DNA of 64,000 nt, from assembly GCF_029625215.1 (NCBI RefSeq), contig NZ_CP121197.1, forward strand, positions 62,001-126,000, given 5' to 3'. The number at the start of each line of letters is the position of its first letter. The stretch's first letter is position 1. The translations under genes and the position numbers were made by a program. The stretch comes from Aurantibacillus circumpalustris (lineage in GTDB: Bacteria; Bacteroidota; Bacteroidia; B-17B0; Aurantibacillaceae). Shown in pieces: positions 43,093 through 59,921 of this stretch. The notes beneath the pieces are model-generated. The model was not told the DNA's origin. It worked only from the letters and a program-made list of their open reading frames with translations, and made no database searches.

Positions 43093-43128
43093 AAAAAACG
43101 CCGTAACAATAATGTTACGGCGTTTTTT
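43093..43128. terminator. Bidirectional terminator between the PEBP gene and array copy 1
   Basis: ACGCCGTAAC-aataat-GTTACGGCGT hairpin framed by A-run and T-run. A near copy with one mismatch follows array copy 4 (53388-53422), showing that the terminator was duplicated with the gene. Confidence 0.85.
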
Positions 43129-43142
43129 TAAGTGATTTATAC

Positions 43143-46100
43143 TTATTTCGTCACCACAATCTTTTGATAAATCTGAAGCCCATCTTTTTGTCCACTCACA
43201 AAATAAATTCCTTTTGCAAGATCACTGATGTTCACTTCATAATTATTGTTAGCTGACAAATTAATCACTCTAATAAGTTGACCAAGCTCATTCACCAAAC
43301 TCAATTTTAAATCAGCGGTGCTTTGAATCGTGAACTTACCATCGTTAGGGTTAGGATAAATGGTTATTCCGTTATTTAAATGACTGAATTCATTTAATCC
43401 AGCGCAGCTTGATATTTTCACTTGAACCGTTGCGGTACTGCTACAACCGTTATCATCTGTTCCTGTTACTGTATAATTGGCAGCAGTGCCGTTTGGAGAC
43501 ACTGTAATGGTTGGCCCTGTCATGGTATTATCCCAAGCATAACTTGAGCCTCCGGCTGCCGTAATTTCAACAGATTCTTTTACACAAATAAGCGTTCTTG
43601 CAGGAACAGCAGTAATGGTAGGATTGTAATAAATACCCAAAGCAATGGTTTGTGTTGCAGGACAAATTAAACCAACAGAATTGCTATTGGCAGTAAGAGT
43701 GAATACAGATGCTACAGTAAGCGGTATTTGTAAAATTTGATTGGTAATTGGAGTCCCACTACCTGTATACCAGTTGTATGTACCCAAAACGCCATTACCT
43801 CCATTTAGATTAATTAGTCCGCCAGAACAAGTGTTTGTGCTACCACTAATAGTAAGTGTTGGAATAAATACGCTTACTGCAACTGTTTGAGTGTTTTTAC
43901 AACCTGTACTGGAGTTTGTTCCTTCCACGGTATACATAATAGCACTTGAAGTAAGTGCAATTGGATTTACAACAGCAATAGCAGTTAAAACATTATTAGC
44001 ATTTGCATCCCAACTGTATGTGCTAGCTCCAAGAGCTGTTAAAGTGGCGCCACCGCCAGAACAGATCAAGGCTTTATTTGATGTTACCGTTAAGTTAGGT
44101 TTTGCATAAACTAAAACAACCTGACTAGCACCGGAGGTACAACCAAAAGAATTATCACCTGTTACATTATAAGCAGTAGCAGTTGTTGGAGTATCAGCAA
44201 TACTGGCTCCAGTAAAAACACCACCACCGGTAGCTGTCCAGTTATAATTAATTCCACCAGTAGCATTAAGGTTAACGGTTTGACCTTCACAGAGTGTTGG
44301 TGTGCTCGCAGAAACCGTAATTGTTGGATTTGGATTTGCATTTAAAAACACCGTGGTTGTACTAATACAAGTTCCATCAGAAGCAGCCACTGAATAAACT
44401 GAAGGCGCAATAGGACTAACAATAGGACTAGAACCGGTAAAGGTATAAGTTGGAGGTCCTGGAGACGTCCACGTATAAGTTAGAGCACCACCAATGGCAA
44501 GCGTTGCAGGTGTTAGTGCACAAACTACGGTAGGAGTTACAATCGCAAAAACAGTTGGTAAAGGATTCGTTTGCAGTGAAAGTACTTGTGTATTAACACA
44601 TGAAGAATTTGCTTTAGTAATGGTATATGTTGTAGTTCCCAAAACCGGAGTCACAATAAAATTGGCTGTGTTTACCGTTTGTGTGGCACTCGACCAGGTG
44701 TAAGAAAGAGCTCCTGTTGCAGAAAGGGTAGAAGAACCCCCAATACAAACTAAACCGGGATTTGCGGTAGGTACATTAACCGGCGTTGGATAAACCGTAA
44801 CCGGCATAGTAGCAAAAGCTGTACAACTTAAAGCACTTGTTCCAATAACGGTATAAGTTGCCGTTAACGGAGGTGTGAAACCCACACCGTTAGTGATACC
44901 GCCAGCACCGCCAGACCAAACATAATTGGTTGCGTTACCAGTTGCTGTAAGCGTTACACTACCACCTGCACATAAAGTAGAAGCGCTCGTTGCAGGATTA
45001 ACTGTTGGAAAAGGGTGCACAGAAACAGAAGTAACTGCTGTTGTTGTTCCACAACCATTCACACCACTCACAGTATAACTAACTGCTGAAGTGGGAGAAA
45101 ATACAACTCCGTTGGTTACAGGAATCGCTCCACCTGCCCAATTGTGAACCAAAGCACCATTTGCTGTAAGCATAACTGTTTGTGTTGGACAAATACCTCC
45201 ACTTGAACTGGCTGTATTGGCAACCGTTAAAACAGGTAAAGATCCATTTACGGTTATTGTAATTGCAGCAGAAGTTGTACAATTAGAAGGACTTGTTGCG
45301 GTTAAACTATAAACTGTATTAGACACAGGAGAAACAACAATTGAAGAAGTGCTTGCGCCTGTGCTCCATGAGTAATTACTTACCGCGTTAGTTGTGAGAG
45401 TAGCTGAATTACCATTACAAATAGCATTGATACTACTGCTCGTTAAGCTTGAAAGTGTAATATTGCATAATTCTGTTATTATAACTCTTCCGTTTCCATT
45501 AACATCGGGATTGGTAACAAATCCGGTTTGACCAAACATGATAGTTGTAGCACTTGTTACTCCACCAATATAGGAAGAACCGCCACCGCCACCGTTGCTA
45601 GTATTGCCTGTAATTGACCCGCCACCTGCACCGCCGCCATACCAGCCGCCGCCGCCGGCACCAGCCATATCTAGGGACTGGCCGCCTTGTCCAAAAGTGC
45701 CGGGTGAACCGCTTGCTCCTGTTCCAGCCGCACCTCCGGCTGCCTGGGTCCCACCTAAGCCCGGATTTGCTCCGTTGCTATTTTGACCTGATAAACCGCC
45801 GCCGTTACCAACTCCTGTGCCAGCATTCGAACCGCCGCCGCCGCCCCCGGCAACAATTTTCACGGCCGATTGATTTGTGGATAAGGTGCTTAAAAGCCCT
45901 GTTGCTGTAGCGACATGCGTTGCGCCACCACCAGAACCTCGTGTGGCTCCACCCGGATTTGGACGGGGACCTCCTCCGTTGTACCCACCGTTAATGTCAG
46001 CGGGGATACCTCCGGTACCGCCCGTCCCACCAACAACAACATAAATAGTTGTAGCAGAACTAAGGGTAAGCGTCCCTTTTGAGTATCCACCTTTCCCTCC

Positions 46101-46295
46101 TTGAGAACCTCCCCCATTGGCACCCCACATTTCTATGTCATAATTACCTGCCTGTGCGAGTAAGGTTTGTGTACTTCCTGTAAAATTGAAAGTGTATGTT
46201 GCTTGCGAATAGGCCGCAACCGAAAATACGGTGAATGCGAGCGCAAACAATCCTTGTTTTGTGCTTGATAATAATTTGTAAATTTTTCTTTTCAT
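43143..46295 (-). CDS. Array copy 1: glycine-rich, Ig-like-repeat, T9SS-sorted surface protein
   Basis: The 1050-residue precursor has a signal peptide (1-31, ending AAYSQ), a glycine-rich domain (about 32-275; starts ATYTFNFTGSTQTL and includes GKGGYSKGTL and IYVVVGG), nine Ig-like modules of about 75 residues each (pattern C-x-G-x-S-x-TL, A-x-x-Y-x-W, TYTV-x-G), and a T9SS type A sorting tail beginning ITIYPNPNDGKFTIQ and ending KIVVTK. It should cross the outer membrane through the T9SS and be held on the surface or released. I start at 46295 because the Met there opens a normal signal peptide; the frame also has an upstream Met at 46322. Confidence 0.9.
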   Translation of the reverse strand: MKRKIYKLLSSTKQGLFALAFTVFSVAAYSQATYTFNFTGSTQTLLAQAGNYDIEMWGANGGGSQGGKGGYSKGTLTLSSATTIYVVVGGTGGTGGIPADINGGYNGGGPRPNPGGATRGSGGGATHVATATGLLSTLSTNQSAVKIVAGGGGGGSNAGTGVGNGGGLSGQNSNGANPGLGGTQAAGGAAGTGASGSPGTFGQGGQSLDMAGAGGGGWYGGGAGGGSITGNTSNGGGGGSSYIGGVTSATTIMFGQTGFVTNPDVNGNGRVIITELCNITLSSLTSSSINAICNGNSATLTTNAVSNYSWSTGASTSSIVVSPVSNTVYSLTATSPSNCTTSAAITITVNGSLPVLTVANTASSSGGICPTQTVMLTANGALVHNWAGGAIPVTNGVVFSPTSAVSYTVSGVNGCGTTTAVTSVSVHPFPTVNPATSASTLCAGGSVTLTATGNATNYVWSGGAGGITNGVGFTPPLTATYTVIGTSALSCTAFATMPVTVYPTPVNVPTANPGLVCIGGSSTLSATGALSYTWSSATQTVNTANFIVTPVLGTTTYTITKANSSCVNTQVLSLQTNPLPTVFAIVTPTVVCALTPATLAIGGALTYTWTSPGPPTYTFTGSSPIVSPIAPSVYSVAASDGTCISTTTVFLNANPNPTITVSASTPTLCEGQTVNLNATGGINYNWTATGGGVFTGASIADTPTTATAYNVTGDNSFGCTSGASQVVLVYAKPNLTVTSNKALICSGGGATLTALGASTYSWDANANNVLTAIAVVNPIALTSSAIMYTVEGTNSSTGCKNTQTVAVSVFIPTLTISGSTNTCSGGLINLNGGNGVLGTYNWYTGSGTPITNQILQIPLTVASVFTLTANSNSVGLICPATQTIALGIYYNPTITAVPARTLICVKESVEITAAGGSSYAWDNTMTGPTITVSPNGTAANYTVTGTDDNGCSSTATVQVKISSCAGLNEFSHLNNGITIYPNPNDGKFTIQSTADLKLSLVNELGQLIRVINLSANNNYEVNISDLAKGIYFVSGQKDGLQIYQKIVVTK

Positions 46296-46440
46296 GATAT
46301 TTTTTCTTGGACTTAAATACAATAAGATGACTAAAGTTACTAAATTTTGCTTTAATGGACTATCGATTTTTGATAAAAATTCTCTGCCTCACGTTTGTTT
46401 TAATTACTTCAGATTAACACATTCTGAAAACAGTTCCCAT

Positions 46441-46470
46441 AAAAAAACCTCCTAAATTGGAGGTTTTTTT
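46441..46470. terminator. Terminator of array copy 2
   Basis: AAAAAAACCTCC-taaatt-GGAGGTTTTTTT hairpin with A and T runs on both sides, 20 nt beyond the copy 2 stop. Its counterpart follows copy 5 at 56682-56711. Confidence 0.85.
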
Positions 46471-46490
46471 ATTTAGCTTTCTAAAGCGAC

Positions 46491-49400
46491 TTATTTCGTC
46501 ACCACAATCTTCTGATAAATCTGACTTGAATCTTTTTGTCCACTCACAAAATAAATTCCTTTTGCAAGATCACTGATATTTACCTCATGGTTATTGGTTG
46601 CAGACAAATTAATCACTCTGATTAATTGACCAAGTTCATTTACCAAACTCAATTTTAAATCAGCGGTGCTTTGAATCGTGAACTTACCATCGTTAGGGTT
46701 TGGATAAATGGTTATTCCGTTATTTAAATGCCTTAATTCATTTAATCCAGCGCAGCTTGATATTTTCACTTGAACCGTTGCGGTACTGCTACAACCGTTA
46801 TCATCTGTTCCTGTTACTGTATAATTGGCAGCAGTGCCGTTTGGAGACACTGTAATGGTTGGCCCTGTCATGGTATTATCCCAAGCATAACTTGAGCCTC
46901 CGGCTGCCGTAATTTCAACAGATTCTTTTACACAAATAAGCGTTCTTGCGGGAACAGCAGTAATGGTAGGATTGTAATAAATACCCAAAGCAATGGTTTG
47001 TGTTGCAGGACAAATTAAACCGATAGAATTGCTATTGGCTGTAAGGGTGAATACAGATGCTACAGTAAGCGGTATTTGTAAAATTTGATTGGTAATTGGA
47101 GTCCCACTACCTGTATGCCAGTTGTATGTACCCAAAACGCCATTACCTCCATTTAGATTAATTAGTCCGCCAGAACAAGTGTTTGTGCTACCACTAATAG
47201 TAAGTGTTGGAATAAATACGCTTACTGCAACTGTTTGAGTGTTTTTACAACCTGTACTGGAGTTTGTTCCTTCCACGGTATACATAATAGCACTTGAAGT
47301 AAGTGCAATTGGATTTACAACAGCAATAGCAGTTAAAACATTATTAGCATTTGTATCCCAACTGTAAGTGTTAGCTCCAAGAGCTGTTAAAGTGGCGCCA
47401 CCGCCAGAACAGATCAAGGCTTTATTTGATGTTACCGTTAAGTTAGGTTTTGCATAAACTAAAACAACCTGACTAGCACCGGAGGTACAACCAAAAGAAT
47501 TATCACCTGTTACATTATAAGCAGTAGCAGTTGTTGGAGTATCAGCAATACTGGCTCCAGTAAAAACACCACCACCGGTAGCTGTCCAGTTATAATTAAT
47601 TCCACCAGTAGCATTAAGGTTAACGGTTTGACCTTCACAGAGTGTTGGTGTGCTCGCAGAAACCGTAATTGTTGGATTTGGATTTGCATTTAAAAACACC
47701 GTGGTTGTACTAATACAAGTTCCATCAGAAGCAGCCACTGAATAAACTGAAGGCGCAATAGGACTAACAATAGGACTAGAACCGGTAAAGGTATAAGTTG
47801 GAGGTCCTGGAGACGTCCACGTATAAGTTAGAGCACCACCAATGGCAAGCGTTGCAGGTGTTAGTGCACAAACTACGGTAGGAGTTACAATCGCAAAAAC
47901 AGTTGGTAAAGGATTCGTTTGCAGTGAAAGTACTTGTGTATTAACACACGAAGAATTTGCTTTTGTAATTGTATATGTTGTAGTTCCCAAAACCGGAGTC
48001 ACAATAAAATTGGCTGTGTTTACCGTTTGTGTGGCACTCGACCAGGTGTAAGAAAGAGCACCTGTTGCAGAAAGGGTAGAAGAACCACCAATACAAACTA
48101 AACCGGGATTTGCGGTAGGTACATTAACCGGTGTTGGATAAACCGTAACCGGCATAGTAGCAAAGGCTGTACAGCTTAAAGCACTTGTTCCAATAACCGT
48201 ATAAGTTGCCGTTAACGGAGGTGTGAAACCCACACCGTTAGTGATACCGCCAGTACCGCCAGACCATGCATAATTGGTTGCATTACCAGTTGCTGTAAGC
48301 GTTACACTACCACCTGCACATAAAGTAGAAGCGCTCGTTGCAGGATTAACTGTTGGAAAAGGGTGCACAGAAACAGAAGTAACTGCTGTTGTTGTTCCAC
48401 AACCATTCACACCACTCACAGTATAACTAACTGCTGAAGTGGGAGAAAATACAACTCCGTTGGTTACAGGAATCGCTCCACCTGCCCAATTGTGAACCAA
48501 AGCACCAGTGGCAGTAAGCATGACTGTTTGGGTTGGACAAATACCACCACTAGAGCTTGCTGTATTTGCAACGGTTAAAACAGGTAAAGATCCATTTACT
48601 GTTATAGTAATGGCAGCATATGCTACACAGTTTGAAACACTGGTTGCACCCAAAGAATAAGTAGTTGTAGTTGTTGGAGAAACCACAACAGAAGAACTGC
48701 TTGCGCCTGTGCTCCACGAATAATTACTTACCGCGTTAGTTGTGAGAGTAGCTGAATTACCATTACAAATAGCATTGATACTGCTGCTGGTTAAACTTGA
48801 AAGGGAAATGTTACATAACTCTTCTATAATTACTTTTCCATTTGCCAAAACGGTTGTAACCGAATTAGTTTGATTTGCACCAGAGTTGTATGATCCACCG
48901 CCGCCACCACCTTCTCTTCCGGTACCATTAGTAGAATTACGGTTACCTCCATTTCCACCAGAAAAACCGCCGCCGCCGCTTGAGGCATACGTTGATGTAG
49001 CAGGGCTAGCATTTCCACCACCACCACCAAAACCACCCCAGGCATAAAGCATAGTAGTGCTTGCCCCTAAACCACCATTCACGTATGCTTTACCGCCATT
49101 GGCAACAGTAGAGTTACCTGCTCCGTCGGTAAAAAAACCACCGCCGCCACCGCCAGAGTTCCCGGTAAAGCTAATACCGCCATTGCCAGCGCATTGACCG
49201 GGCCCTGATTGTAAGTCGAATGTGCCGCAGGTAGCCGTAGTAGCGCTAAGACCCGAAAAATCGCCGCTTGGAGCGCCACCGCCTCCGGCAATAACCAAAA
49301 TGGAGGGAAGTGAATTATGAGGCGTTTTTGTTACAAAACTAGCTCCACCTCCTCCAGCGGCATAACTCGGATGATCTTGCCCCCTCTGGCCTACCAATAT

Positions 49401-49787
49401 TTGCAGTACATCTCCTGCAGTTAATGTAAATTCGCCACTCATGAAAGCGCCGTAGCCTGGCGTCCTTCCCGAGGCACCAGTTGTGCCACTAGTGGCGCCA
49501 ATAGCTGTTATTCTATACAAACCGGTTAAAGGTACCGTCCATGTTTGAATTCCCGTAGTAGTAACTCCCACGGCTAAGTTAAGATTGGTTAATGCGTAAG
49601 CACTGTTTATCTGAATTTGTGTTGGACCTATACTTCCCGTAGCACTACAGTTCGTGAAAGTGTACGTTTGTTGCGAATACATTGCAGTAAATGCTAATAA
49701 TGAACTTAAAAAAAGTAATAATCTTATTTTTTCTAGATTCAACTGTAAAATAGTTGGGAAATTAAAAGGGGGGTAGTTTTTTTTCAT
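46491..49787 (-). CDS. Array copy 2: ALK-type glycine-rich domain, Ig-like repeats, T9SS sorting tail
   Basis: The 1098-residue precursor is the longest copy. After a signal sequence (1-38, ending AMYSQ) comes a glycine-rich domain (about 39-325) different from those of copies 1, 3 and 4: FTNCSATGSIGPTQIQINSA, then IQTWTVPLTGLYRITAIGA, FTLTAGDVLQILVGQRGQD and several GGGG runs. This order closely recalls the glycine-rich extracellular domain of ALK/LTK receptors. The following nine Ig-like modules are almost identical to copy 1, including a 577-nt stretch (47372-47948) with no difference by eye. The tail reads YPNPNDGKFTIQSTADL and ends QKDSSQIYQKIVVTK. Confidence 0.9.
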   Translation of the reverse strand: MKKNYPPFNFPTILQLNLEKIRLLLFLSSLLAFTAMYSQQTYTFTNCSATGSIGPTQIQINSAYALTNLNLAVGVTTTGIQTWTVPLTGLYRITAIGATSGTTGASGRTPGYGAFMSGEFTLTAGDVLQILVGQRGQDHPSYAAGGGGASFVTKTPHNSLPSILVIAGGGGAPSGDFSGLSATTATCGTFDLQSGPGQCAGNGGISFTGNSGGGGGGFFTDGAGNSTVANGGKAYVNGGLGASTTMLYAWGGFGGGGGNASPATSTYASSGGGGFSGGNGGNRNSTNGTGREGGGGGGSYNSGANQTNSVTTVLANGKVIIEELCNISLSSLTSSSINAICNGNSATLTTNAVSNYSWSTGASSSSVVVSPTTTTTYSLGATSVSNCVAYAAITITVNGSLPVLTVANTASSSGGICPTQTVMLTATGALVHNWAGGAIPVTNGVVFSPTSAVSYTVSGVNGCGTTTAVTSVSVHPFPTVNPATSASTLCAGGSVTLTATGNATNYAWSGGTGGITNGVGFTPPLTATYTVIGTSALSCTAFATMPVTVYPTPVNVPTANPGLVCIGGSSTLSATGALSYTWSSATQTVNTANFIVTPVLGTTTYTITKANSSCVNTQVLSLQTNPLPTVFAIVTPTVVCALTPATLAIGGALTYTWTSPGPPTYTFTGSSPIVSPIAPSVYSVAASDGTCISTTTVFLNANPNPTITVSASTPTLCEGQTVNLNATGGINYNWTATGGGVFTGASIADTPTTATAYNVTGDNSFGCTSGASQVVLVYAKPNLTVTSNKALICSGGGATLTALGANTYSWDTNANNVLTAIAVVNPIALTSSAIMYTVEGTNSSTGCKNTQTVAVSVFIPTLTISGSTNTCSGGLINLNGGNGVLGTYNWHTGSGTPITNQILQIPLTVASVFTLTANSNSIGLICPATQTIALGIYYNPTITAVPARTLICVKESVEITAAGGSSYAWDNTMTGPTITVSPNGTAANYTVTGTDDNGCSSTATVQVKISSCAGLNELRHLNNGITIYPNPNDGKFTIQSTADLKLSLVNELGQLIRVINLSATNNHEVNISDLAKGIYFVSGQKDSSQIYQKIVVTK

Positions 49788-50113
49788 AGTTATTGTTTAT
49801 CAGATATAGCTAATGTAAATTTATTAAATTCAGATGGATGTTAGAAGTTTTTTATGTTAAACTAAGAGGTTAACTAATTAAGTATTAGTTAATCAAAAAT
49901 ATTAGTAATCTAGATGCGGGATCTCTAACTCGATTTTCGCCACACTCACTTATCCAAACAACAACTGAGTCAACGTTACACCGGTAGACCTTTGAAATTC
50001 ATTTGGTATAAACAATTAGCATAGGTGGTGAATTTAGGAAACCAATTTGAAAAACATATAAAAAAATAAGCCCTGTCTCCAAAAAGAAACAGGGCTTTAA
50101 ATTAAAATTTAAT
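49788..50113. other. Intergenic interval between copies 2 and 3
   Basis: No gene is seen in 326 nt. It contains the copy 3 terminator at about 50061-50097 (AAGCCCTGT and ACAGGGCTT stem, T-run on the minus strand) and AT-rich leader DNA of copy 2. Unlike the other gaps in the array it has no copy elsewhere in the window. Confidence 0.6.
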
Positions 50114-53100
50114 TTACTTTGTCACCACAATCTTCTGATAAATCTGAAGCCCATCTTTTTGTCCACTCACAAAATAAATTCCTTTTGCAAGATCAATGAT
50201 GTTTACTTCATGATTATTGGTTGCAGACAGATTTATCACTCTAATGAGTTGACCGAGTTCATTTACTAAACTCAATTTTAAATCGGCATTCGTTTGAATA
50301 GTAAACTTACCATCATTCGGATTTGGATAAATGCTTATTTCGCTATTTAAACTACTTAATTCATTTAATCCAGAGCAGTTTGATATTTTCACTTGAACAG
50401 TTGCGGTACTACTACAACCGTTATCATCTGTTCCTGTTACTGTATAGTTTGCAGTAGTGCCAGTTGGAGATACCGTAATAGTTGGCCCTGTCATGGTATT
50501 GTTCCAGGCGTAACTTGTAGCTCCGGCCGCTGTAATTCCAACAGATTCTTTTGTGCAAATAAGTGTTCTTGCAGGAACCGCAGTAATGGTTGGATTATAA
50601 TAAATACCCAAAGCAATGGTTTGTGTTGCAGGGCAAATTAAACCAACAGAATTGCTATTGGCAGTAAGAGTGAATACAGATGCTACAGTAAGCGGCATTT
50701 GCAGAATTTGATTGGTAATTGGAGTACCGCTACCTGTATGCCAGTTGTATGTACCCAAAACGCCGTTACCCGCGGTTAGATTAATTAGTCCGCCAGAACA
50801 AGTGTTTGTGCTACCATTAATTGTAAGTGTAGGAACAAAAACGTTTACCAATACTGTTTGGGTGTTTTTACAACCTGTATTAGAGTTTGTTCCTTCAACG
50901 GTATACATAACAGCACTCGAGGTAAGTGCAATTGGATTTACAACAGCTGCCTGAGTTAAAACATTGTTGGCATTTGCATCCCAACTGTATGTGCTAGCTC
51001 CAAGAGCCGTTAAAGTGGCAGCACCGCCAGAACAGATCAAGGCTTTATTTGATGTTACCGTTAAGTTAGGTTTTGCATAAACTAAAACAACCTGACTAGC
51101 ACCAGAAGTACAACCAAAAGAATTATCACCTGTTACATTATAAGCAGTAGCCGTTGTTGGTGTATCAGCAATACTAGCTCCGTTAAAAATACCACCACCG
51201 GTAGCAGTCCAAGTATAATTAATTCCACCACTTGCATTAAGATTAACGGTTTGACCTTCACAGAGTGTTGGTGTGCTCGCCGTAGCCGTAATTGTTGGAT
51301 TTGGATTTGCATTTAAAAACACAGTGGTTGTACTAATACAAGTTCCATCAGAGGCCGCCACTGAATAAACAGTAGGCGCAATAGGACTAACAACAGGACT
51401 AGCACCTGTAAAAGTATAAGTTGGAGGTCCAGGAGAGGTCCACATATAAGTTAGCGCACCACCAATGGCAAGTGTTGCAGGTGTTAGCGCGCAAACCACA
51501 GTAGGAGTTACAATTGCAAAAACAGTTGGTAAAGGATTTGTTACCACTGAAAGAGTTTGCGTATTAATACAAGAAGAGTTAGCTTTTGTAATGGTATATG
51601 TTGTGATTCCTAAACCTGGCGTCACAATAAAATTGGCTGTATTTACAGTTTGTGTAGTACTTGACCAAGTGTAACTTAAAGCCCCTGTGGCAGAAAGGGT
51701 AGAAGAACCCCCAATACAAACTAAACCTGGATTGGCGGTAGGTACATTAACCGGTGTTGGATAAACCGTAACCGGCATAGTAGCAAAGGCTGTACAGCTT
51801 AAAGCACTTGTTCCAATAACCGTATAAGTTGCCGTTAACGGAGGTGTGAAACCCACACCGTTAGTGATACCGCCAGTACCGCCAGACCAAACATAATTGG
51901 TTGCATTACCTGTTGCAGTTAAAGTGACACTGCTGCCTGCACACAAAGTAGAAGCACTAGTAATTGGGTTAACTGTTGGAAAAGGATGAACAGAAACTGA
52001 AGTCACAGCCGTTGTTGTTCCACAACCATTCACACCACTCACAGTATAACTAACTGCTGAAGTGGGTGAAAACACCACGCCGTTTGTTACAGGAATTGCT
52101 CCACCGGACCAAGAATAAGTCAATGCACCACTTGCAGTAAGTATTACCGTTTTCGTAGGACAAATACCACCGCTTGCACTAGCTGTGTTGGCAACTGATA
52201 AAACAGGAACGGATCCGTTTACGGTTATCGTGATTACTGAAGAGGCTGTACAATTAGAAGGACTTGTTGCAGTTAAACTATAAACAGTATTAGACAAAGG
52301 AGAAACAACAATTGAAGACGTACTTGCGCCAGTGCTCCACGAATAATTACTGATTGCATTGGTGATTAAGGTAGCTGAGTTACCGCTGCAAATAGCATTA
52401 ATACTGCTACTTGTTAAACTTGAAAGTGAAATGTTGCATAACTCTTTTATAATCACCAGGCCGTTTCCGGTAGTAACTGGATTGACAACAAAACCGGTTT
52501 GACCGAACCCTGCGATTGTCCCAGTAGTTAACCCACCAATATAGCCTGAACCACCGCCGCCGCCGCTATGCACAGCACCTCCTGCTGAACCGCCATAATA
52601 TCCACCACCACCACCACAACCTGACCAACCGCTTCCCGGAGCTGTGGTTGAGTGAGAACCTCCCACACCTAAAACTCCTGCACCAACGGTACTGTTAGAT
52701 TCTGTTGTTCCTGGGCCGCCCGCGATTTGCGTTCCACCTTGACCTGCCCAATAAATTGTGGTGCCGACAGAATAATTTACTCCGTTGGCTCCATTAGTAC
52801 CACCACCGTTACCACCGGCAAATTGGTAAGTGCTTACGCCAGGTATAGAACCGCCCCCACCGCCGCCGGCAACAATAACTCTATTTGCATAAGTTGTGTT
52901 TAGAGTAGTTCTCACATCTGAGCCGCCGCCACCGCCGCCACTCGTACCATACCCCGAGTTACAAGAACCATTGCCGCCACCGTTCCAACCGCCAAGCGCG
53001 TTACCAGAACCTGTTACATTGATTGCCGTACCAACACCGCCAACATAAATATAGCATGTTGTTGGTGTTGGTATAGTTAGAGTGCCTGTCGAATAACCGC

Positions 53101-53305
53101 CTTTTCCACCATTGGAAGTGCCGCCATTTGCTCCCCAGCACTGTATTGAATAAGAACCTGCTTGAAGGGCTAAGGTTTGTGAAGCTCCCGTGTAATTGAA
53201 AGTGTAAGTTGCTTGTGAGTATGCAATGCCCGAAAATACGATCAATGCAAATGCAAACAATCCTTTTTTTGTTATTAATAATAGATTGTAAATTTTTCTT
53301 TTCAT
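50114..53305 (-). CDS. Array copy 3: glycine-rich, Ig-like-repeat, T9SS-sorted surface protein
   Basis: The 1063-residue precursor has a signal peptide (about 1-30, ending GIAYSQ) and a glycine-rich domain (31-285) related to copies 1 and 4 at the start (ATYTFNYTGASQTLALQAGS) but with its own middle (GYGTSGGGGGGSDVRTTLN). The nine Ig-like modules differ from copy 1 throughout at scattered sites. Its last about 300 codons match copy 5 best: GLINLTAGNGVLGTYNWHTG, ESVGITAAGATSYAW and KISNCSG, and a tail with FTIQTNADL and VNIIDLAKG. It was probably the donor for patches seen in copy 4. Confidence 0.9.
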   Translation of the reverse strand: MKRKIYNLLLITKKGLFAFALIVFSGIAYSQATYTFNYTGASQTLALQAGSYSIQCWGANGGTSNGGKGGYSTGTLTIPTPTTCYIYVGGVGTAINVTGSGNALGGWNGGGNGSCNSGYGTSGGGGGGSDVRTTLNTTYANRVIVAGGGGGGSIPGVSTYQFAGGNGGGTNGANGVNYSVGTTIYWAGQGGTQIAGGPGTTESNSTVGAGVLGVGGSHSTTAPGSGWSGCGGGGGYYGGSAGGAVHSGGGGGSGYIGGLTTGTIAGFGQTGFVVNPVTTGNGLVIIKELCNISLSSLTSSSINAICSGNSATLITNAISNYSWSTGASTSSIVVSPLSNTVYSLTATSPSNCTASSVITITVNGSVPVLSVANTASASGGICPTKTVILTASGALTYSWSGGAIPVTNGVVFSPTSAVSYTVSGVNGCGTTTAVTSVSVHPFPTVNPITSASTLCAGSSVTLTATGNATNYVWSGGTGGITNGVGFTPPLTATYTVIGTSALSCTAFATMPVTVYPTPVNVPTANPGLVCIGGSSTLSATGALSYTWSSTTQTVNTANFIVTPGLGITTYTITKANSSCINTQTLSVVTNPLPTVFAIVTPTVVCALTPATLAIGGALTYMWTSPGPPTYTFTGASPVVSPIAPTVYSVAASDGTCISTTTVFLNANPNPTITATASTPTLCEGQTVNLNASGGINYTWTATGGGIFNGASIADTPTTATAYNVTGDNSFGCTSGASQVVLVYAKPNLTVTSNKALICSGGAATLTALGASTYSWDANANNVLTQAAVVNPIALTSSAVMYTVEGTNSNTGCKNTQTVLVNVFVPTLTINGSTNTCSGGLINLTAGNGVLGTYNWHTGSGTPITNQILQMPLTVASVFTLTANSNSVGLICPATQTIALGIYYNPTITAVPARTLICTKESVGITAAGATSYAWNNTMTGPTITVSPTGTTANYTVTGTDDNGCSSTATVQVKISNCSGLNELSSLNSEISIYPNPNDGKFTIQTNADLKLSLVNELGQLIRVINLSATNNHEVNIIDLAKGIYFVSGQKDGLQIYQKIVVTK

Positions 53306-53387
53306 GTAAGTGTAGTGTAAAGTTAAGATAGGTAAATATAGTAAATTATATATCCTATCCTAATATTATTCTGTTAAAAGTTAGCGA

Positions 53388-53422
53388 CAAAAAAGCCGCA
53401 ACAATATTGTTACGGCGTTTTT
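53388..53422. terminator. Terminator of array copy 4
   Basis: GCCG-c-AACAATATTGTT-a-CGGC hairpin (one C-A mismatch) with A-run before and T-run after. It is a diverged duplicate of the terminator at 43093-43128 behind copy 1. Confidence 0.75.
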
Positions 53423-53440
53423 ATTAAGCGATTTGTATGC

Positions 53441-56400
53441 TTACTTCGTTACCACAATCTTTTGATAAATCTGAAGCCCATCTTTTTGTCCACTCACAAA
53501 ATAAATTCCTTTTGCAAGATCACTGATGTTCACTTCATAATTATTGTTAGCTGACAAATTAATCACTCTGATTAATTGGCCGAGTTCATTTACTAAACTC
53601 AATTTTAAATCGGCGTTCGTTTGAATAGTAAACTTACCATCGTTAGGGTTTGGATAAATGGTTATTCCGTTATTTAAATGACTGAATTCATTTAATCCAG
53701 CGCAGCTTGATATTTTCACTTGAACCGTTGCGGTACTGCTACAACCGTTATCATCTGTTCCTGTTACTGTATAATTGGCAGCAGTGCCGTTTGGAGACAC
53801 TGTAATGGTTGGCCCTGTCATGGTATTATCCCAAGCATAACTTGAGCCTCCGGCTGCCGTAATTTCAACAGATTCTTTTACACAAATAAGCGTTCTTGCG
53901 GGAACAGCAGTAATGGTAGGGTTGTAATAAATACCCAAAGCAATGGTTTGTGTTGCAGGACAAATTAAACCGATAGAATTGCTATTGGCTGTAAGGGTGA
54001 ATACAGATGCTACAGTAAGCGGTATTTGTAAAATTTGATTGGTAATTGGAGTCCCACTACCTGTATGCCAGTTGTATGTACCCAAAACGCCATTACCTCC
54101 ATTTAGATTAATTAGTCCGCCAGAACAAGTGTTTGTGCTACCACTAATAGTAAGTGTTGGAATAAATACGCTTACTGCAACTGTTTGAGTGTTTTTACAA
54201 CCTGTACTGGAGTTTGTTCCTTCCACGGTATACATAATAGCACTTGAAGTAAGTGCAATTGGATTTACAACAGCAATAGCAGTTAAAACATTATTAGCAT
54301 TTGCATCCCAACTGTATGTGCTAGCTCCAAGAGCTGTTAAAGTGGCGCCACCGCCAGAACAGATCAAGGCTTTATTTGATGTTACCGTTAAGTTAGGTTT
54401 TGCATAAACTAAAACAACCTGACTAGCACCGGAAGTACAACCAAAAGAATTATCACCTGTTACATTATAAGCAGTAGCAGTTGTTGGAGTATCAGCAATA
54501 CTGGCTCCAGTAAAAACACCACCACCGGTAGCTGTCCAGTTATAATTAATTCCACCAGTAGCATTAAGGTTAACGGTTTGACCTTCACAGAGTGTTGGTG
54601 TGCTCGCAGAAACCGTAATTGTTGGATTTGGATTTGCATTTAAAAACACCGTGGTTGTACTAATACAAGTTCCATCAGAAGCAGCCACTGAATAAACTGA
54701 AGGCGCAATAGGACTAACAACAGGACTAGCACCAGTAAAAGTATAAGTTGGAGGTCCAGGAGAGGTCCACATATAAGTTAGCGCACCACCAATGGCAAGC
54801 GTTGCAGGTGTTAGCGCACAAACTACGGTTGGAGTTACAATCGCAAAAACAGTTGGTAAAGGATTCGTTTGCAGTGAAAGTACTTGTGTATTAACACATG
54901 AAGAATTTGCTTTAGTAATGGTATATGTTGTAGTTCCCAAAACCGGAGTCACAATAAAATTGGCTGTGTTTACCGTTTGTGTGGCACTCGACCAGGTGTA
55001 AGAAAGAGCTCCTGTTGCAGAAAGGGTAGAAGAACCCCCAATACAAACTAAACCGGGATTTGCGGTAGGTACATTAACCGGTGTTGGATAAACCGTAACC
55101 GGCATAGTAGCAAAAGCTGTACAACTTAAAGCACTTGTTCCAATAACGGTATAAGTTGCCGTTAACGGAGGTGTGAAACCCACACCGTTAGTGATACCGC
55201 CAGCACCGCCAGACCAAACATAATTGGTTGCGTTACCCGTTGCAGTTAAAGTGACACTACCGCCAGCACATAAAGTAGAAGTGCTTGTTGCAGGATTAAC
55301 CGTTGGAAAAGGATGAACTGAAACTGAAGTCACAGCCGTTGTTGTACCACAGCCATTCACACCACTCACAGTATAACTAACTGCTGAAGTGGGAGAAAAT
55401 ACAACTCCGTTGGTTACAGGAATCGCTCCACCTGCCCAATTGTGAACCAAAGCACCATTTGCTGTAAGCATAACTGTTTGTGTTGGACAAATACCTCCAC
55501 TTGAACTGGCTGTATTGGCAACGGTTAAAACAGGTAAAGATCCATTTACGGTTATTGTAATTGCAGCAGAAGTTGTACAATTAGAAGGACTTGTTGCGGT
55601 TAAACTATAAACTGTATTAGACACAGGAGAAACAACAATTGAAGAAGTGGTTGCACCAGTGCTCCATGAGTAATTACTTACCGCGTTAGTTGTGAGAGTA
55701 GCTGAATTACCATTACAAATAGCATTGATACTACTGCTCGTTAAGCTTGAAAGTGTAATATTGCATAATTCTGTTATTATAACTCTTCCGTTTCCTGTAA
55801 CATCAGGATTAGGCACATAACCAGTTTGAGCAGACATGGTAGTTACACCATTAGTTACACCACCGATGTAACCACTACCACCAGAACCAGCATTATTTTG
55901 ATAGCCACCGCCGCCATACCAACCGCCGCCACCGCCGCCGCCATAAGATGTTGTTATATCTCCACCCTGACCAAATGAGCCAAAAACACCACCAGAACTG
56001 CCTGTTTGTGTGCCTGGATAACTTCCACCTCCAGATAAACCACCACCATGTCCAATTAATCCTGAATTTTGATCTCCGCCGCCGCCGCCGGCAACTATAC
56101 GAACTGCAGATTGGTTACTCACTAAAGCACTTAAAACTCCTGTTGCAGTTGAAATATGAGTAGCGCCACCACCTGCTCGGCCAGTAGAGGCAGCATATCC
56201 CATTCCTCCACCATTATATCCTCCAGCTTGCAATCCTGTGGCCGTATATATCGGTGTGCCACCAACTACAATGTATAAAGTAGTAGTGGCTGGCAAATTA
56301 AGAGTTCCAGTTGAATACCCACCTATACCAGCTCTTGTGTTACCCGAATTTCCACCATTAGCACCCCACATTTTTATGTCATAAGTACCTGCCTGAAGGG

Positions 56401-56536
56401 TTAAGGTTTGTATACTTCCTGTGTAATTTAGAGTGTAGGTTGCTTGTGAGTGTGCCACACCCCAAAATACAGTCAATGCAAGTGCAAATAATCCTTGTTT
56501 TGCGCTTGATAATAATTTGTAAATCTCTCTTTTCAT
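53441..56536 (-). CDS. Array copy 4: mosaic glycine-rich, Ig-like-repeat, T9SS-sorted surface protein
   Basis: The 1031-residue precursor has a signal peptide close to copy 1 (MKREIYKLLSSAKQGLFALA), a glycine-rich domain of its own (about 32-255; WGANGGNSGNTRAGIGGYST) and Ig-like modules that follow copy 1 except for clear copy 3-like tracts. One lies at about 54721-54815 (protein: TYMWTSP and GASPVVSP instead of TYTWTSP and GSSPIVSP), one at about 55225-55345, and one in the tail at about 53593-53640 (FTIQTNADL instead of FTIQSTADL). Such switches point to gene conversion. The start at 56536 is chosen as in copy 1; a Met at 56563 also lies in frame. Confidence 0.9.
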   Translation of the reverse strand: MKREIYKLLSSAKQGLFALALTVFWGVAHSQATYTLNYTGSIQTLTLQAGTYDIKMWGANGGNSGNTRAGIGGYSTGTLNLPATTTLYIVVGGTPIYTATGLQAGGYNGGGMGYAASTGRAGGGATHISTATGVLSALVSNQSAVRIVAGGGGGDQNSGLIGHGGGLSGGGSYPGTQTGSSGGVFGSFGQGGDITTSYGGGGGGGWYGGGGYQNNAGSGGSGYIGGVTNGVTTMSAQTGYVPNPDVTGNGRVIITELCNITLSSLTSSSINAICNGNSATLTTNAVSNYSWSTGATTSSIVVSPVSNTVYSLTATSPSNCTTSAAITITVNGSLPVLTVANTASSSGGICPTQTVMLTANGALVHNWAGGAIPVTNGVVFSPTSAVSYTVSGVNGCGTTTAVTSVSVHPFPTVNPATSTSTLCAGGSVTLTATGNATNYVWSGGAGGITNGVGFTPPLTATYTVIGTSALSCTAFATMPVTVYPTPVNVPTANPGLVCIGGSSTLSATGALSYTWSSATQTVNTANFIVTPVLGTTTYTITKANSSCVNTQVLSLQTNPLPTVFAIVTPTVVCALTPATLAIGGALTYMWTSPGPPTYTFTGASPVVSPIAPSVYSVAASDGTCISTTTVFLNANPNPTITVSASTPTLCEGQTVNLNATGGINYNWTATGGGVFTGASIADTPTTATAYNVTGDNSFGCTSGASQVVLVYAKPNLTVTSNKALICSGGGATLTALGASTYSWDANANNVLTAIAVVNPIALTSSAIMYTVEGTNSSTGCKNTQTVAVSVFIPTLTISGSTNTCSGGLINLNGGNGVLGTYNWHTGSGTPITNQILQIPLTVASVFTLTANSNSIGLICPATQTIALGIYYNPTITAVPARTLICVKESVEITAAGGSSYAWDNTMTGPTITVSPNGTAANYTVTGTDDNGCSSTATVQVKISSCAGLNEFSHLNNGITIYPNPNDGKFTIQTNADLKLSLVNELGQLIRVINLSANNNYEVNISDLAKGIYFVSGQKDGLQIYQKIVVTK

Positions 56537-56681
56537 GCTATTTTTTTTTGGACTTAAATACAATAGGATGACTAAAGTTACTAAATTTTGCTTTAATGGA
56601 CCATCGATTTTTGATAAAAATTCTCTGCCTCACGTTTGTTTTAACTACTTCAGATTAACAAATTCTGAAAACAGTCTCCAT

Positions 56682-56711
56682 AAAAAAACCTCCAAATTAG
56701 GAGGTTTTTTT
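56682..56711. terminator. Terminator of array copy 5
   Basis: AAAAAAACCTCC-aaatta-GGAGGTTTTTTTT hairpin, a duplicate of the copy 2 terminator, with surrounding DNA also duplicated. Confidence 0.85.
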
Positions 56712-56732
56712 TATTTAGCTTTCTAAAGCGAC

Positions 56733-59700
56733 TTATTTCGTCACCACAATCTTCTGATAAATCTGAAGACCATCTTTTTGTCCACTCACAAAATAAATTC
56801 CTTTTGCAAGATCAATGATGTTTACTTCATGATTATTGGTTGCAGACAGATTTATCACTCTAATGAGTTGACCGAGTTCATTTACTAAACTCAATTTTAA
56901 ATCGGCATTCGTTTGAATAGTAAACTTGCCATCGTTAGGATTTGGATAAATGATTATTTCGTTATTTAAATTACTTAATTCATTTATTCCAGAGCAGTTT
57001 GATATTTTTACCTGAACCGTTGCGGTACTGCTACAACCGTTATCATCTGTTCCTGTTACTGTATAATTTGCAGTAGTGCCAGTTGGAGATACCGTAATGG
57101 TTGGTCCTGTCATGGTATTGTTCCAGGCGTAACTGGTAGCTCCGGCCGCTGTAATTCCAACAGATTCTTTTGTGCAAATAAGTGTTCTTGCAGGAACGGC
57201 AGTAATGGTAGGATTGTAATAAATACCCAAAGCAATGGTTTGTGTTGCAGGGCAAATTAAACCAACAGAATTGCTATTGGCAGTAAGGGTGAATACGGAT
57301 GCTACCGTAAGCGGCATCTGTAAAGTTTGATTGGTAATTGGAGTACCACTACCTGTATGCCAGTTGTATGTACCCAAAACTCCGTTACCCGCGGTTAAAT
57401 TAATTAGTCCACCAGAACAAGTGTTTGTGCTACCATTAATTGTAAGTGTAGGAACAAAAACGCCTACCGATACTGTCTGAGTATTTTTACAACCTGTGCT
57501 GGAATTTGTTCCTTCAACAGTGTACATTACAGCACTGGAAGTAAGTGCCGTTGGATTTACCACAGCTATGGGAGTTAAAACATTATTGGCATTGGCATCC
57601 CAACTAAATGTACTAGCTCCTGAAGCTGTTAAAGTTGCAGAGCTACCTGAGCATATTAATATTTTATTTGAACTTGCTGTTACAATAGGTTTAGGGTAAA
57701 CTAAAACAACTTGATTAGCAGAAGAAGTGCAACCAAAAGAGTTACTACCCGAAACGTTGTAAGCAGTTGCAGTCGTAGGAGTGTGAACAATACTTGATCC
57801 TGTATAAGTAGCTCCACCGGTAAGAGTCCAATTATAATTAAGTCCGCCATTCGCGTTCAGTGTTACTGTTTCACCTTCACACAATGAAGGTGTACTTGCT
57901 GTAGCCGTAATTGTTGGATTCGGATTTGCATTTAAAAATACAGTAGTTGTATTAATACAAGTTCCATCAGAAGCAGCCACAGTATAAATTGAAGGAGCAA
58001 CGGGACTTGTAATAGGACTGGCACCAGTAAAGGTATAAGATGGTGGTCCAGGTGAAGTCCATGTATAAGTGAGGGCGCCACCAACTGCAAGTGTTGCAGG
58101 AGATAGTGCACAAACCACAGTTGGTGTTACAATAGCAAAAATGCTAGGTAATGGATTTGTTACAACCGTGATTATTTGCGTATTATAACAGGTAGAGTTT
58201 GCCTTTGTAATAGTATATGTTGTGTTTCCTACAACGGGTGTTACAATAAAATTAGCTGTGTTTACTGTTTGACTAGAGCTCGTCCAGGTATAATTGGCAG
58301 CACCTGTTGCAGAAAGCGTTGAAGAACCACCTATACAAATTAAGCCAGGATTTGCTGTTGGAGGATTGATAGGTGTTGGATAAACCGTAACTGGAATCGT
58401 GGCTGAAGCCGTACAACTTAAGGCACTCGTTCCAATAACAGTATAAGTGGCCGTTAAGGGTGGACTAAAGCCAACGCCATTAGAAATACCACCAACGCCA
58501 CCAGACCATGCATAAGCGGTTGCGTTACCTGTTGCTGTTAGTGTTACGCTATTGCCTGAACATATTGAAGCGCTGCTGGCAACCGGATTAACTGTTGGGA
58601 ATGGATGAATGGATACACTAATAGCTGCGGTAGCAGTACCACAAGCATTACCGCCTGTAACCGTATACACATTTGTTCCAATTGGTGCAAAAGCCACGCC
58701 GTTGGTTACTCCACCTGTCCAAGTATAGGAAGTCGCTCCGCCACCATTTAAGGTAAGCGTTTTACCGGGGCAAGCACCAGCGGTACCATTACTACTATTT
58801 GCCGTTACGGTTGGTGTATTATTAACAGTAACAGTTATAGCACTATTGGCAATACAACCAAATGAATTTGTACCCGAAACAGAATACGTTGCATTCGCTG
58901 AAGGAGCTACAGTTATGCTGTTTGAGTTAGATGTAGTACTCCAGGTATATGTTGTATTTCCGGTAGCGGTTAAAGAAGCTGTTGAGCCAACACAAATAGA
59001 GTTATTTCCAACAACTGTTATGGTAGAAGGGCTAACAACGGTTGTTTGTGTAGATAAACAACTCGTTCCTGGCGTAAATCGGTACATCTCATTTGTGGCA
59101 GACCAATTTGTTGTTGAGTTACGACCTGCAACGGCGTACCATGCTGATCCATTAATATTCTCAATACCCATGGTATGATTACCACCATCAGTTATCATTG
59201 AAGTGGTATGTATTTCAATAACATTTGTCGATTCATATAATTGCAATTGTGCAGTAAGCGCACCGCCTCCACTTCCAAAGTGAGGAACGTTGTTAAAATT
59301 AACCAGCAATATTCTGTTTGGAGCTATTCCAACAGTTGCATAAGATATTGTTCCACCTACCCCAGGATTAAAATCTTCCCAGGTTAAAGTAATTAAGTCA
59401 TTAGGAGTATTCGTGTTAGGCCATAATTCGCCAGAGCAACATCCGTTGGCACCACCATTATATGAAAAGGTTATAAACCCGTTAGAGCTAATGTAAAAAG
59501 TAGAATACGTATTACAGAAAAACTTAAAGTTAAAACCAATTGACAGTGCATTTGCGGTTACTTGATCATCAGATAATACAACACTGGTCGGTGTTTCTGG
59601 ACCAGTTGTTACTGTTGGCATCGGAAGGGGATTATACCAAGTAGTGCCCGTACCCCCTGTTATCGCATAGGTAGGTGAGCAAATTGAATATGTTACGGTA

Positions 59701-59921
59701 TGCACGCCCGGCCCAGCAATTGAGGGATTAAAAGCTGAATTTACAACACCTGGCCCTGCGAATGTTCCGCCGGTTGCCGTTGTTGTTAAAGCAGTTGTAG
59801 CCGAATTCGTGCAATAATTCGCATTTAAGCCGGTAAAGCTACATTGTGCAAACATTACATATGCATTCGAAATTAATGCCACCGCCAAAAGTAACGTTCT
59901 GTTGTAAAGTTTTTTCATCAT
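56733..59921 (-). CDS. Array copy 5: different N-terminal module, Ig-like repeats, T9SS sorting tail
   Basis: The 1062-residue precursor starts with a signal peptide ending VMFAQ, then a module CSFTGLNANYCTN / GGTFAGPGVVNSAFNPSIAG of a kind repeated in many Bacteroidota surface proteins, then a beta-rich domain of about 190 residues (SIGFNFKFFCNTYSTFYISS, NGFITFSYNGG, TLTWEDFNPGVGGTISY). This replaces the glycine-rich domain of copies 1-4. The Ig-like modules are the most diverged in the middle (for example LCEGETVTLNANGGLNYNW), while the last about 300 codons match copy 3. The tail is IIIYPNPNDGKFTIQTNADL and ends KIVVTK. It has the clearest promoter of the array (59965-59998). Confidence 0.9.
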   Translation of the reverse strand: MMKKLYNRTLLLAVALISNAYVMFAQCSFTGLNANYCTNSATTALTTTATGGTFAGPGVVNSAFNPSIAGPGVHTVTYSICSPTYAITGGTGTTWYNPLPMPTVTTGPETPTSVVLSDDQVTANALSIGFNFKFFCNTYSTFYISSNGFITFSYNGGANGCCSGELWPNTNTPNDLITLTWEDFNPGVGGTISYATVGIAPNRILLVNFNNVPHFGSGGGALTAQLQLYESTNVIEIHTTSMITDGGNHTMGIENINGSAWYAVAGRNSTTNWSATNEMYRFTPGTSCLSTQTTVVSPSTITVVGNNSICVGSTASLTATGNTTYTWSTTSNSNSITVAPSANATYSVSGTNSFGCIANSAITVTVNNTPTVTANSSNGTAGACPGKTLTLNGGGATSYTWTGGVTNGVAFAPIGTNVYTVTGGNACGTATAAISVSIHPFPTVNPVASSASICSGNSVTLTATGNATAYAWSGGVGGISNGVGFSPPLTATYTVIGTSALSCTASATIPVTVYPTPINPPTANPGLICIGGSSTLSATGAANYTWTSSSQTVNTANFIVTPVVGNTTYTITKANSTCYNTQIITVVTNPLPSIFAIVTPTVVCALSPATLAVGGALTYTWTSPGPPSYTFTGASPITSPVAPSIYTVAASDGTCINTTTVFLNANPNPTITATASTPSLCEGETVTLNANGGLNYNWTLTGGATYTGSSIVHTPTTATAYNVSGSNSFGCTSSANQVVLVYPKPIVTASSNKILICSGSSATLTASGASTFSWDANANNVLTPIAVVNPTALTSSAVMYTVEGTNSSTGCKNTQTVSVGVFVPTLTINGSTNTCSGGLINLTAGNGVLGTYNWHTGSGTPITNQTLQMPLTVASVFTLTANSNSVGLICPATQTIALGIYYNPTITAVPARTLICTKESVGITAAGATSYAWNNTMTGPTITVSPTGTTANYTVTGTDDNGCSSTATVQVKISNCSGINELSNLNNEIIIYPNPNDGKFTIQTNADLKLSLVNELGQLIRVINLSATNNHEVNIIDLAKGIYFVSGQKDGLQIYQKIVVTK

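Follow-up and report, generated by a model that had tools for sequence, protein, structure and literature searches.

We consider it very likely that ectopic gene conversion and unequal recombination homogenize the stalk, terminator, promoter, and signal peptide, but not the heads, of a 17-member gene family in Aurantibacillus circumpalustris. Members of this family share junctions, some of mosaic structure, and long exact tracts occur between distant loci. The shared segments end inside coding DNA, and heads and stalks differ in divergence and ancestry. The recombination events were inferred within one genome, from a single strain of the species. The best-known cases of concerted evolution in bacteria are rRNA genes and tandem arrays confined to one locus. 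Here, it would extend across dispersed clusters of large surface-protein genes, promoters and terminators included, while the heads keep their own histories.

Five tandem genes and their family

The window (the whole 64,000-nucleotide stretch of DNA analyzed) corresponds to bases 62001-126000 of a one-contig genome of 4.60 Mb (completeness, 100). It contains five large genes, W1 to W5 (copies 1 to 5), arranged head to tail on the minus strand (43143-59921) and encoding proteins of 1040-1098 amino acids (aa) each.

43143-46322, minus strand: W1 (copy 1), likely ATG at 46293-46295; Pfam matches to a glycine-rich head (ALK_LTK_GRD, PF12810, 9.6e-26), an Ig_7 stalk (PF19081, 3.6e-9), and a T9SS sorting domain (PF18962, 5.1e-13)
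43143-45476, minus strand: stalk and sorting domain of W1, 777 aa, common to the 17 genes
46491-49787, minus strand: W2 (copy 2), weak Gly_rich_2 head (E 0.01, below cut-off), stalk as in W1
50114-53305, minus strand: W3 (copy 3), ALK_LTK_GRD head, stalk as in W1
53441-56563, minus strand: W4 (copy 4), likely ATG at 56534-56536, ALK_LTK_GRD head, stalk as in W1
56733-59921, minus strand: W5 (copy 5), head without Pfam match, stalk as in W1

Each protein runs from a signal-peptide-like N-terminus through a head and Ig-like stalk domains to a type IX sorting domain. The N-termini, seen by eye to be hydrophobic in the translations, are putative Sec signal peptides. The Pfam scan covered the window proteins, and PF18962 (Por_Secre_tail), a sign of T9SS type A cargo, was found in all five. 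TIGR04183 scored above cut-off in 2/2 family proteins tested; the remaining 12 genes and the other glycine-rich heads were assigned by alignment only. The mechanically called TTG starts of W1 and W4 (46293-46322 and 56534-56563) fall in the 5' leader, with the likely ATG 27 nt further on. Because of this offset in W1, the interval 46296-46490 is exactly the DNA from stop codon to ATG.

When the whole genome was searched with copy 1 (150 of 253 candidates scored), 17 places among the matches listed had 73-100% aa identity, followed by a long match at 40%, with partial matches reaching 58%. The 17 genes occupy six loci: W1 to W5 in the window and P1 to P3, Q1 to Q4, R1 to R3, S1, and T1 elsewhere. 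All are complete open frames of at least 990 aa, and each looks like its own transcription unit, with a signal peptide, a variable head, an Ig-like stalk plus sorting domain of ~775 aa, and a terminator. The P cluster lies at ~3.19 Mb, the Q cluster at ~3.65 Mb, and T1 at ~2.33 Mb. Measured in contig coordinates, the Q cluster is ~3.5 Mb from the window array, or ~1.1 Mb by the shorter way if the contig is circular. Copy 1 had at least 228 matches genome-wide, pointing to many Ig-like, type IX-type proteins besides those of the 17 genes.

Copying of entire clusters with their surroundings was rejected, because the 11 flanks compared (those of the clusters and single genes, leaving out the upstream side of S1) had no mutual similarity at E 1e-5. 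A painting of bins served for orientation only, and its flank bins take in physical neighbors.

A junction block shared by three clusters

The DNA between W2 and W1 has a counterpart between W5 and W4, and both contain the end of one transcription unit and the beginning of the next.

46296-46490, minus strand: junction block W2/W1, containing the terminator of copy 2 and both the promoter and the 5' untranslated leader of copy 1
56537-56732, minus strand: junction block W5/W4, counterpart of the W2/W1 block
46206-46295, minus strand: start of the signal-peptide coding sequence in copy 1 (MKRKIYKLLSSTKQGLFAL...), forming the downstream end of the homogenized block
46439-46472, minus strand: intrinsic terminator of copy 2, hairpin CCTCC-AATTTA-GGAGG plus T run
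56680-56711, minus strand: intrinsic terminator of copy 5
43094-43142, minus strand: terminator behind copy 1
53389-53440, minus strand: terminator behind copy 4
46332-46339, minus strand: putative -7 element TAACTTTA of copy 1, TAnnTTTG-like
56573-56580, minus strand: putative -7 element TAACTTTA of copy 4, TAnnTTTG-like

A sequence-only reading of this DNA had claimed that the W2/W1 block is matched by the W5/W4 block with few substitutions, and that the terminators behind copies 1 and 4 are related. Both claims were borne out. The two junctions aligned over 168/169 bp at 94.1% identity, with 9 mismatches and 1 gap (E 8.5e-71), and the two terminators at 87.8% over 49 bp (E 3.5e-11). Within the junction, identity was 93% of 55 columns in the terminator and 94% of 141 columns in the remaining intergenic DNA. 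Nor does similarity stop at the coding boundaries, the outcome that would have refuted the sequence-only reading: it was 88% in the last 200 nt of the upstream coding sequence (CDS) and 83% in the first 90 columns of the downstream CDS, falling to 70% in the next 159 columns and then to 51%. A single BLAST alignment covered leader, intergenic DNA, and upstream gene (46110-48467 with 56351-58709, 82.4%). Promoter and terminator DNA is shared alongside coding DNA, so the history must include more than the copying of coding sequence.

The best match of the W2/W1 junction lies outside the window, at Q1/Q2 (97.0% over 168 bp, 5 mismatches), with W5/W4 next. A whole-genome search (40 of 41 candidates scored) yielded 12 matches, of which six were full length and six were short and on the opposite strand; the latter are the hairpin itself, at the same six places. 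The full-length copies (W2/W1, W5/W4, P3/P2, P2/P1, Q1/Q2, and Q2/Q3) belong to three clusters. The block, comprising terminator, promoter, and signal-peptide start, thus occupies 6 of the 11 tandem family junctions, always between tandem members, and the other five junctions are of different types. No full-length copy was found elsewhere in the 4.6-Mb genome outside tandem family members, and the complete block was not detected in the 40 relatives searched, five of which had short matches around the terminator (query 21-85). Among the 15 pairs of junction copies, the first 90 CDS columns were 83-94% identical, after which identity dropped to 56-70%.

Folding supported the terminators. The region around the copy 2 hairpin (46430-46492) folded at -20.2 kcal/mol and that around the copy 5 hairpin (56672-56734) at -20.4 kcal/mol, with 0/200 shuffles as good in either case; the values behind copies 1 and 4 were -24.0 (0/200 shuffles as good) and -19.4 (2/200). 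Genome-wide, the hairpin GCCGTAACA-N-TGTTACGGC was found in exactly three places, all behind family genes (W1 at 43094-43142, Q3, and R3), and by eye the W4 terminator is the same hairpin with one mismatch. The loop of the Q1/Q2 terminator (TAAATC) is the exact reverse complement of the Q2/Q3 loop (GATTTA), perhaps through a small inversion inside the hairpin. The putative -7 elements resemble TAnnTTTG, the Bacteroidota-type promoter consensus. Of the 17 genes, 15 had a TAnnTTT[AG] motif no more than 60 nt from the start, compared with 18% of mononucleotide shuffles; for R1 and T1, the scan was anchored at a TTG that is possibly not the real start.

Mosaic structure of the junction

The relatives of the W2/W1 junction switch along its length. 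In the promoter part, 15 sites grouped W2/W1 with W5/W4 and Q1/Q2 against Q2/Q3, P3/P2, and P2/P1, and one site showed the opposite. Over the final 400 nt of upstream CDS, 40 sites grouped W2/W1 with Q2/Q3 against W5/W4 and Q1/Q2, and 0 sites backed the split seen in the promoter part (Fisher P = 1e-12, for segments picked after viewing the alignment). Furthermore, the P3/P2 and P2/P1 junctions had in common an identical stretch of 365 nt that begins 97 nt ahead of the stop codon and ends ~70 nt into the next CDS. Further upstream, P3 was 73-93% like P2 in 30-nt windows, and despite the identical junctions the heads of P1 and P2 differed at a dS of 1.80. Both the P junctions and the W2/W1 mosaic thus reveal a recombination unit that consists of the 3' part of one gene, the intergenic DNA, and the 5' part of the next gene, with its ends in conserved coding DNA.

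Exact tracts and recombination in the stalk

Three of the exact tracts that involve window genes are as follows.

46510-46775, minus strand: 266-bp exact tract, 3' end of copy 2 with Q2 (L017; ~3.65 Mb)
56887-57857, minus strand: 971-bp exact tract, copy 5 with T1 (L020; ~2.33 Mb), the longest between loci
44056-44905, minus strand: 850-bp exact tract, copy 1 with P1 (L016; ~3.19 Mb)

Across 763 gap-free codons, the stalks of the 17 genes were 71-98% identical at the nucleotide level. The PHI statistic was 0.419, compared with 0.598 ± 0.004 under permutation (0/1000 permutations as extreme). Long shared runs were detected at P ≤ 0.01 in 114 of 136 gene pairs, and in 84 of 136 when only third positions were used. 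Both tests were run with our own scripts; uneven conservation along a gene can lengthen runs, an effect that the third-position version reduces. Recombination between paralogs, one mark of concerted evolution, is therefore apparent in both tests. Of the exact stalk tracts of at least 150 bp, 88 joined genes at different loci and 32 joined genes at the same locus, and they linked all six loci. The 971-bp tract joins loci ~2.2 Mb apart and spans 305 polymorphic sites, where the permutation mean was 16.5. Between R2 and R3, identity extended for up to 1205 bp.

Separate histories of heads and stalks

For the nine genes with glycine-rich heads, median dS was 1.32 in the head (possibly inflated, given gappy head alignments), 0.37 in the leader (30 codons), and 0.57, 0.21, and 0.24 in three parts of the stalk. 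The pair W1/W4 combined a head dS of 1.32 with a stalk dS of 0.04-0.13 and intergenic DNA that was 6% different. There was no sign of positive selection on the heads in pooled dN/dS (median, ~0.36).

The head of copy 1 had 11 matches in 6 of the 20 congeners searched (of 24 congeners). We built a tree from 14 own heads and 6 of these matches, dropping four partial matches, one weak match, and own head b21, which is near-identical to b19. Own heads grouped with congener heads in several places: P1 with G008b (100/100), W3 with G008a (98/100), Q2 with G016, G008c, and G019b (99/99), and b19, from a second gene family, with G019a (100/100). W1 and W4 were sister heads at 88/80, under the starred level. 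Only three of the nine family heads had a congener partner in this 20-head tree; those of W1, W4, P2, Q3, R3, and Q4 had none. A single clade of own heads was rejected (14 own versus 6 congener rows; AU P = 2.4e-5). In contrast, the 17 own stalks grouped as a single clade (100/100) when set against 14 congener stalks, which came from five genomes; one of 15 congener stalks (408 aligned residues) had been dropped. The seven own stalks compared were 39-51% identical to those of congeners. The paralogs are thus more alike than they are to the genes of relatives, a second mark of concerted evolution.

Pairwise identities repeat this pattern. Head identity at the aa level was 83% for P1/G008b, 78% for W3/G008a, and 79% for Q2/G008c (76-79% for Q2 with congener heads overall); the remaining head pairs compared were at 42-65%, except for Q2-type heads among themselves (74-79%). 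Bodies were 91-99% identical among five own genes, 52-61% among three G008 genes, and 40-49% between genomes, the G008 comparison being confined to the three genes whose heads match P1, W3, and Q2. Because the G008 bodies are shorter (595-600 versus 775 aa), the low identity between own and G008 bodies may partly reflect another stalk type. The three G008 bodies are only 52-61% alike, so the evidence for strong homogenization covers the A. circumpalustris genome alone. The assemblies of congeners come in many pieces (up to 630 contigs), and near-identical repeats may have dropped out of them. Some heads are probably older than the species, and heads may have moved between stalk types; sharing with congeners could alternatively reflect horizontal transfer. 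By either route, heads and stalks differ in history.

Alternative histories

The sequence-only reading had explained the matching junctions by duplication of a segment containing at least one gene plus flanks. In its simplest form, copy 4 was duplicated within the array, along with its promoter and terminator, to produce copy 1, which later diverged. We regard this as improbable, and as the sole history it is rejected by the mosaic and the unequal divergence. Part of the proposal stands: promoter and terminator are shared together with coding DNA, and W1 and W4 have a common junction type (94%), related terminators (88%, 49 bp), and sister heads (88/80, not starred). Because of these heads and terminators, an old duplication of the whole unit is probably part of the history of W1 and W4. 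But six junction copies exist at three loci, the W2/W1 junction is nearer to Q1/Q2 (97%) than to W5/W4, and its nearest relatives change along its length. A head dS of 1.32 and a stalk dS of 0.04-0.13 are not of one age, and the same promoter stands before the Q2 head, which groups with congener heads (99/99) and not with W1/W4. Pieces of W1/W4 and of the junction differ in apparent age, which recurrent recombination explains and a single duplication does not.

An assembly artifact, in which near-identical repeats were misjoined or polished to each other, is very unlikely. Identity tracts as long as that of R2/R3 (1205 bp) are of a size that misleads short-read assembly, but this is a one-contig genome of completeness 100 with all 17 open frames (at least 990 aa) intact. 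Besides the long copies, there are many short alternating patches with substitutions of their own, and the dissociation of heads from stalks is independent of long-range joins.

We give even less credence to retro-duplication or cDNA conversion, whereby reverse-transcribed transcripts recombined back into the genome. Similarity does end near the terminator T run in some pairs, ~55-57 nt after the stop codon for Q3/R3 and ~49 nt for W1/W4. Yet the DNA common to the six junctions runs through the terminator, the stretch behind it that is presumably not transcribed, and the promoter, more than a transcript that stops at the terminator would contain; at all six, shared DNA lies upstream of the predicted transcription start. 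The sole RVT_1 hit in the genome is of phage type and has its own repeats nearby, and a blastn comparison (E 1e-3) of the 14 kb around it with the 17 genes and their flanks gave no match. No variable repeat matching a template beside a reverse transcriptase, as expected for a target of a diversity-generating retroelement, was found in the 17 genes, and an origin by either kind of retro-copying was rejected.

A recent lineage-specific expansion with fast-evolving heads under selection and no conversion, for which the single clade of own stalks and the six of nine heads without congener partner could speak, is scarcely credible, since head synonymous divergence is ~2 to 6 times that of stalk parts of the same genes at a head dN/dS of ~0.36 (medians), three heads pair with congener heads and a single own head clade is rejected (AU P = 2.4e-5), and the stalk mosaic requires recombination.

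The reverse transcriptase hit is an observation in its own right. At ~1.324-1.327 Mb (L087:6425-8500), the phage-type enzyme (phrog_1423, 2e-117) stands beside three related repeats of ~80 bp, and the element looks like a diversity-generating retroelement.

A proposed mechanism

Under gene conversion and unequal recombination, the reading that we prefer, homologous recombination between copies, even megabases apart, would keep overwriting the stalk. In neighboring genes, the junction would be overwritten as well, from the 3' end of gene n through the terminator, promoter, and 5' leader to the signal-peptide start of gene n+1. The block would end in coding DNA because the partners share coding DNA there, and it would stop where the heads are too different. 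Heads of different types (42-65% aa identity) would escape overwriting and persist as separate lineages, and a junction could be handed between genes without closely related heads, such as W1 and Q2. The main process may be RecA-type gene conversion. Unequal crossing-over between stalks would change copy number and spread genes to new loci, and a circle of stalk, junction, and head could possibly be excised and reinserted. Selection may favor uniform expression, export, and anchoring of different heads.

A tentative and rather doubtful extension is that the family constitutes a uniform display system. Very old head modules, some shared with other species, would be mounted on one standard used throughout the genome and made up of promoter, signal peptide, stalk, sorting domain, and terminator. 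Recombination between distant loci would keep this standard uniform, and stalk-junction-head circles could move heads between clusters.

Relation to known systems

Tsuru and Kobayashi reportedly described, in 2008, a recombination unit across two adjacent genes in the tandem lipoprotein (lpl) array of Staphylococcus aureus. For the esaG array of the same species, the portion of the published account used here gives intergenic regions that resemble one another in length and sequence, apart from those preceding other genes (PMC9484751). As far as that portion goes, the lpl and esaG arrays and our case have in common a two-gene recombination unit that spans the intergenic region. Unlike in those arrays, exact tracts here also connect six separate loci, the conserved part is a stalk of 2.3 kb, a promoter and a terminator lie within the junction, and the products have type IX sorting domains; the present case is known from one genome, at one genome per species. 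It is the lpl/esaG principle extended to dispersed clusters and to large surface proteins in another phylum.

Rhs genes, in the sections of the source consulted (PMC2935791), have a conserved core and exchanged C-terminal tips, with a proposed circular intermediate. On that description, both systems attach different tips to one conserved part, recombine homologously within it, and could move tips between loci by a circle. In contrast to Rhs as described there, the variable part here is N-terminal and each of the 17 copies is a complete gene, in most cases provided with a terminator-like hairpin and a promoter-like site. The Porphyromonas gingivalis genes kgp, rgpA, and hagA encode surface proteins that share adhesin domains and end in type IX sorting, carrying the corresponding domains, according to the excerpt available (PMC5266723). 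There, too, type IX-sorted surface proteins are diversified by recombining shared domains; that excerpt concerns allele and domain variants between strains, whereas our 17 genes lie in one genome and their noncoding junctions are included. As judged from the 17 family members alone, antigenic variation with one expression locus and silent cassettes is less likely: 17/17 genes are complete open frames and 15/17 have a promoter-like site. In searches of open-licence papers, one with a weak query, none of the titles listed dealt with the 17-gene family or with shared junctions in type IX cargo.

The same delivery parts (switches, export signals, stalks, and anchors) have thus been copied among genes across the chromosome and serve different tips. 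In trees of such proteins, heads and stalks must be treated apart, and genes that stand behind the same promoter block were not necessarily duplicated together with it. The family also offers a test, in a natural genome, of the identity needed for ectopic recombination.

A second clustered family, to which b19 belongs, is present at ~2.525-2.531 Mb (L019:5897-12126) and ~1.278-1.284 Mb (L021:3223-9454), and joins the leader and glycine-rich type of head seen in the 17-gene family to different bodies. The gene order is b-c-d in one cluster and d-c-b in the other. Between clusters, genes b and c are 95-99% alike and gene d 83-88%. The junctions of this family stay in place, being 96-97% identical when compared by position versus 87-90% otherwise.
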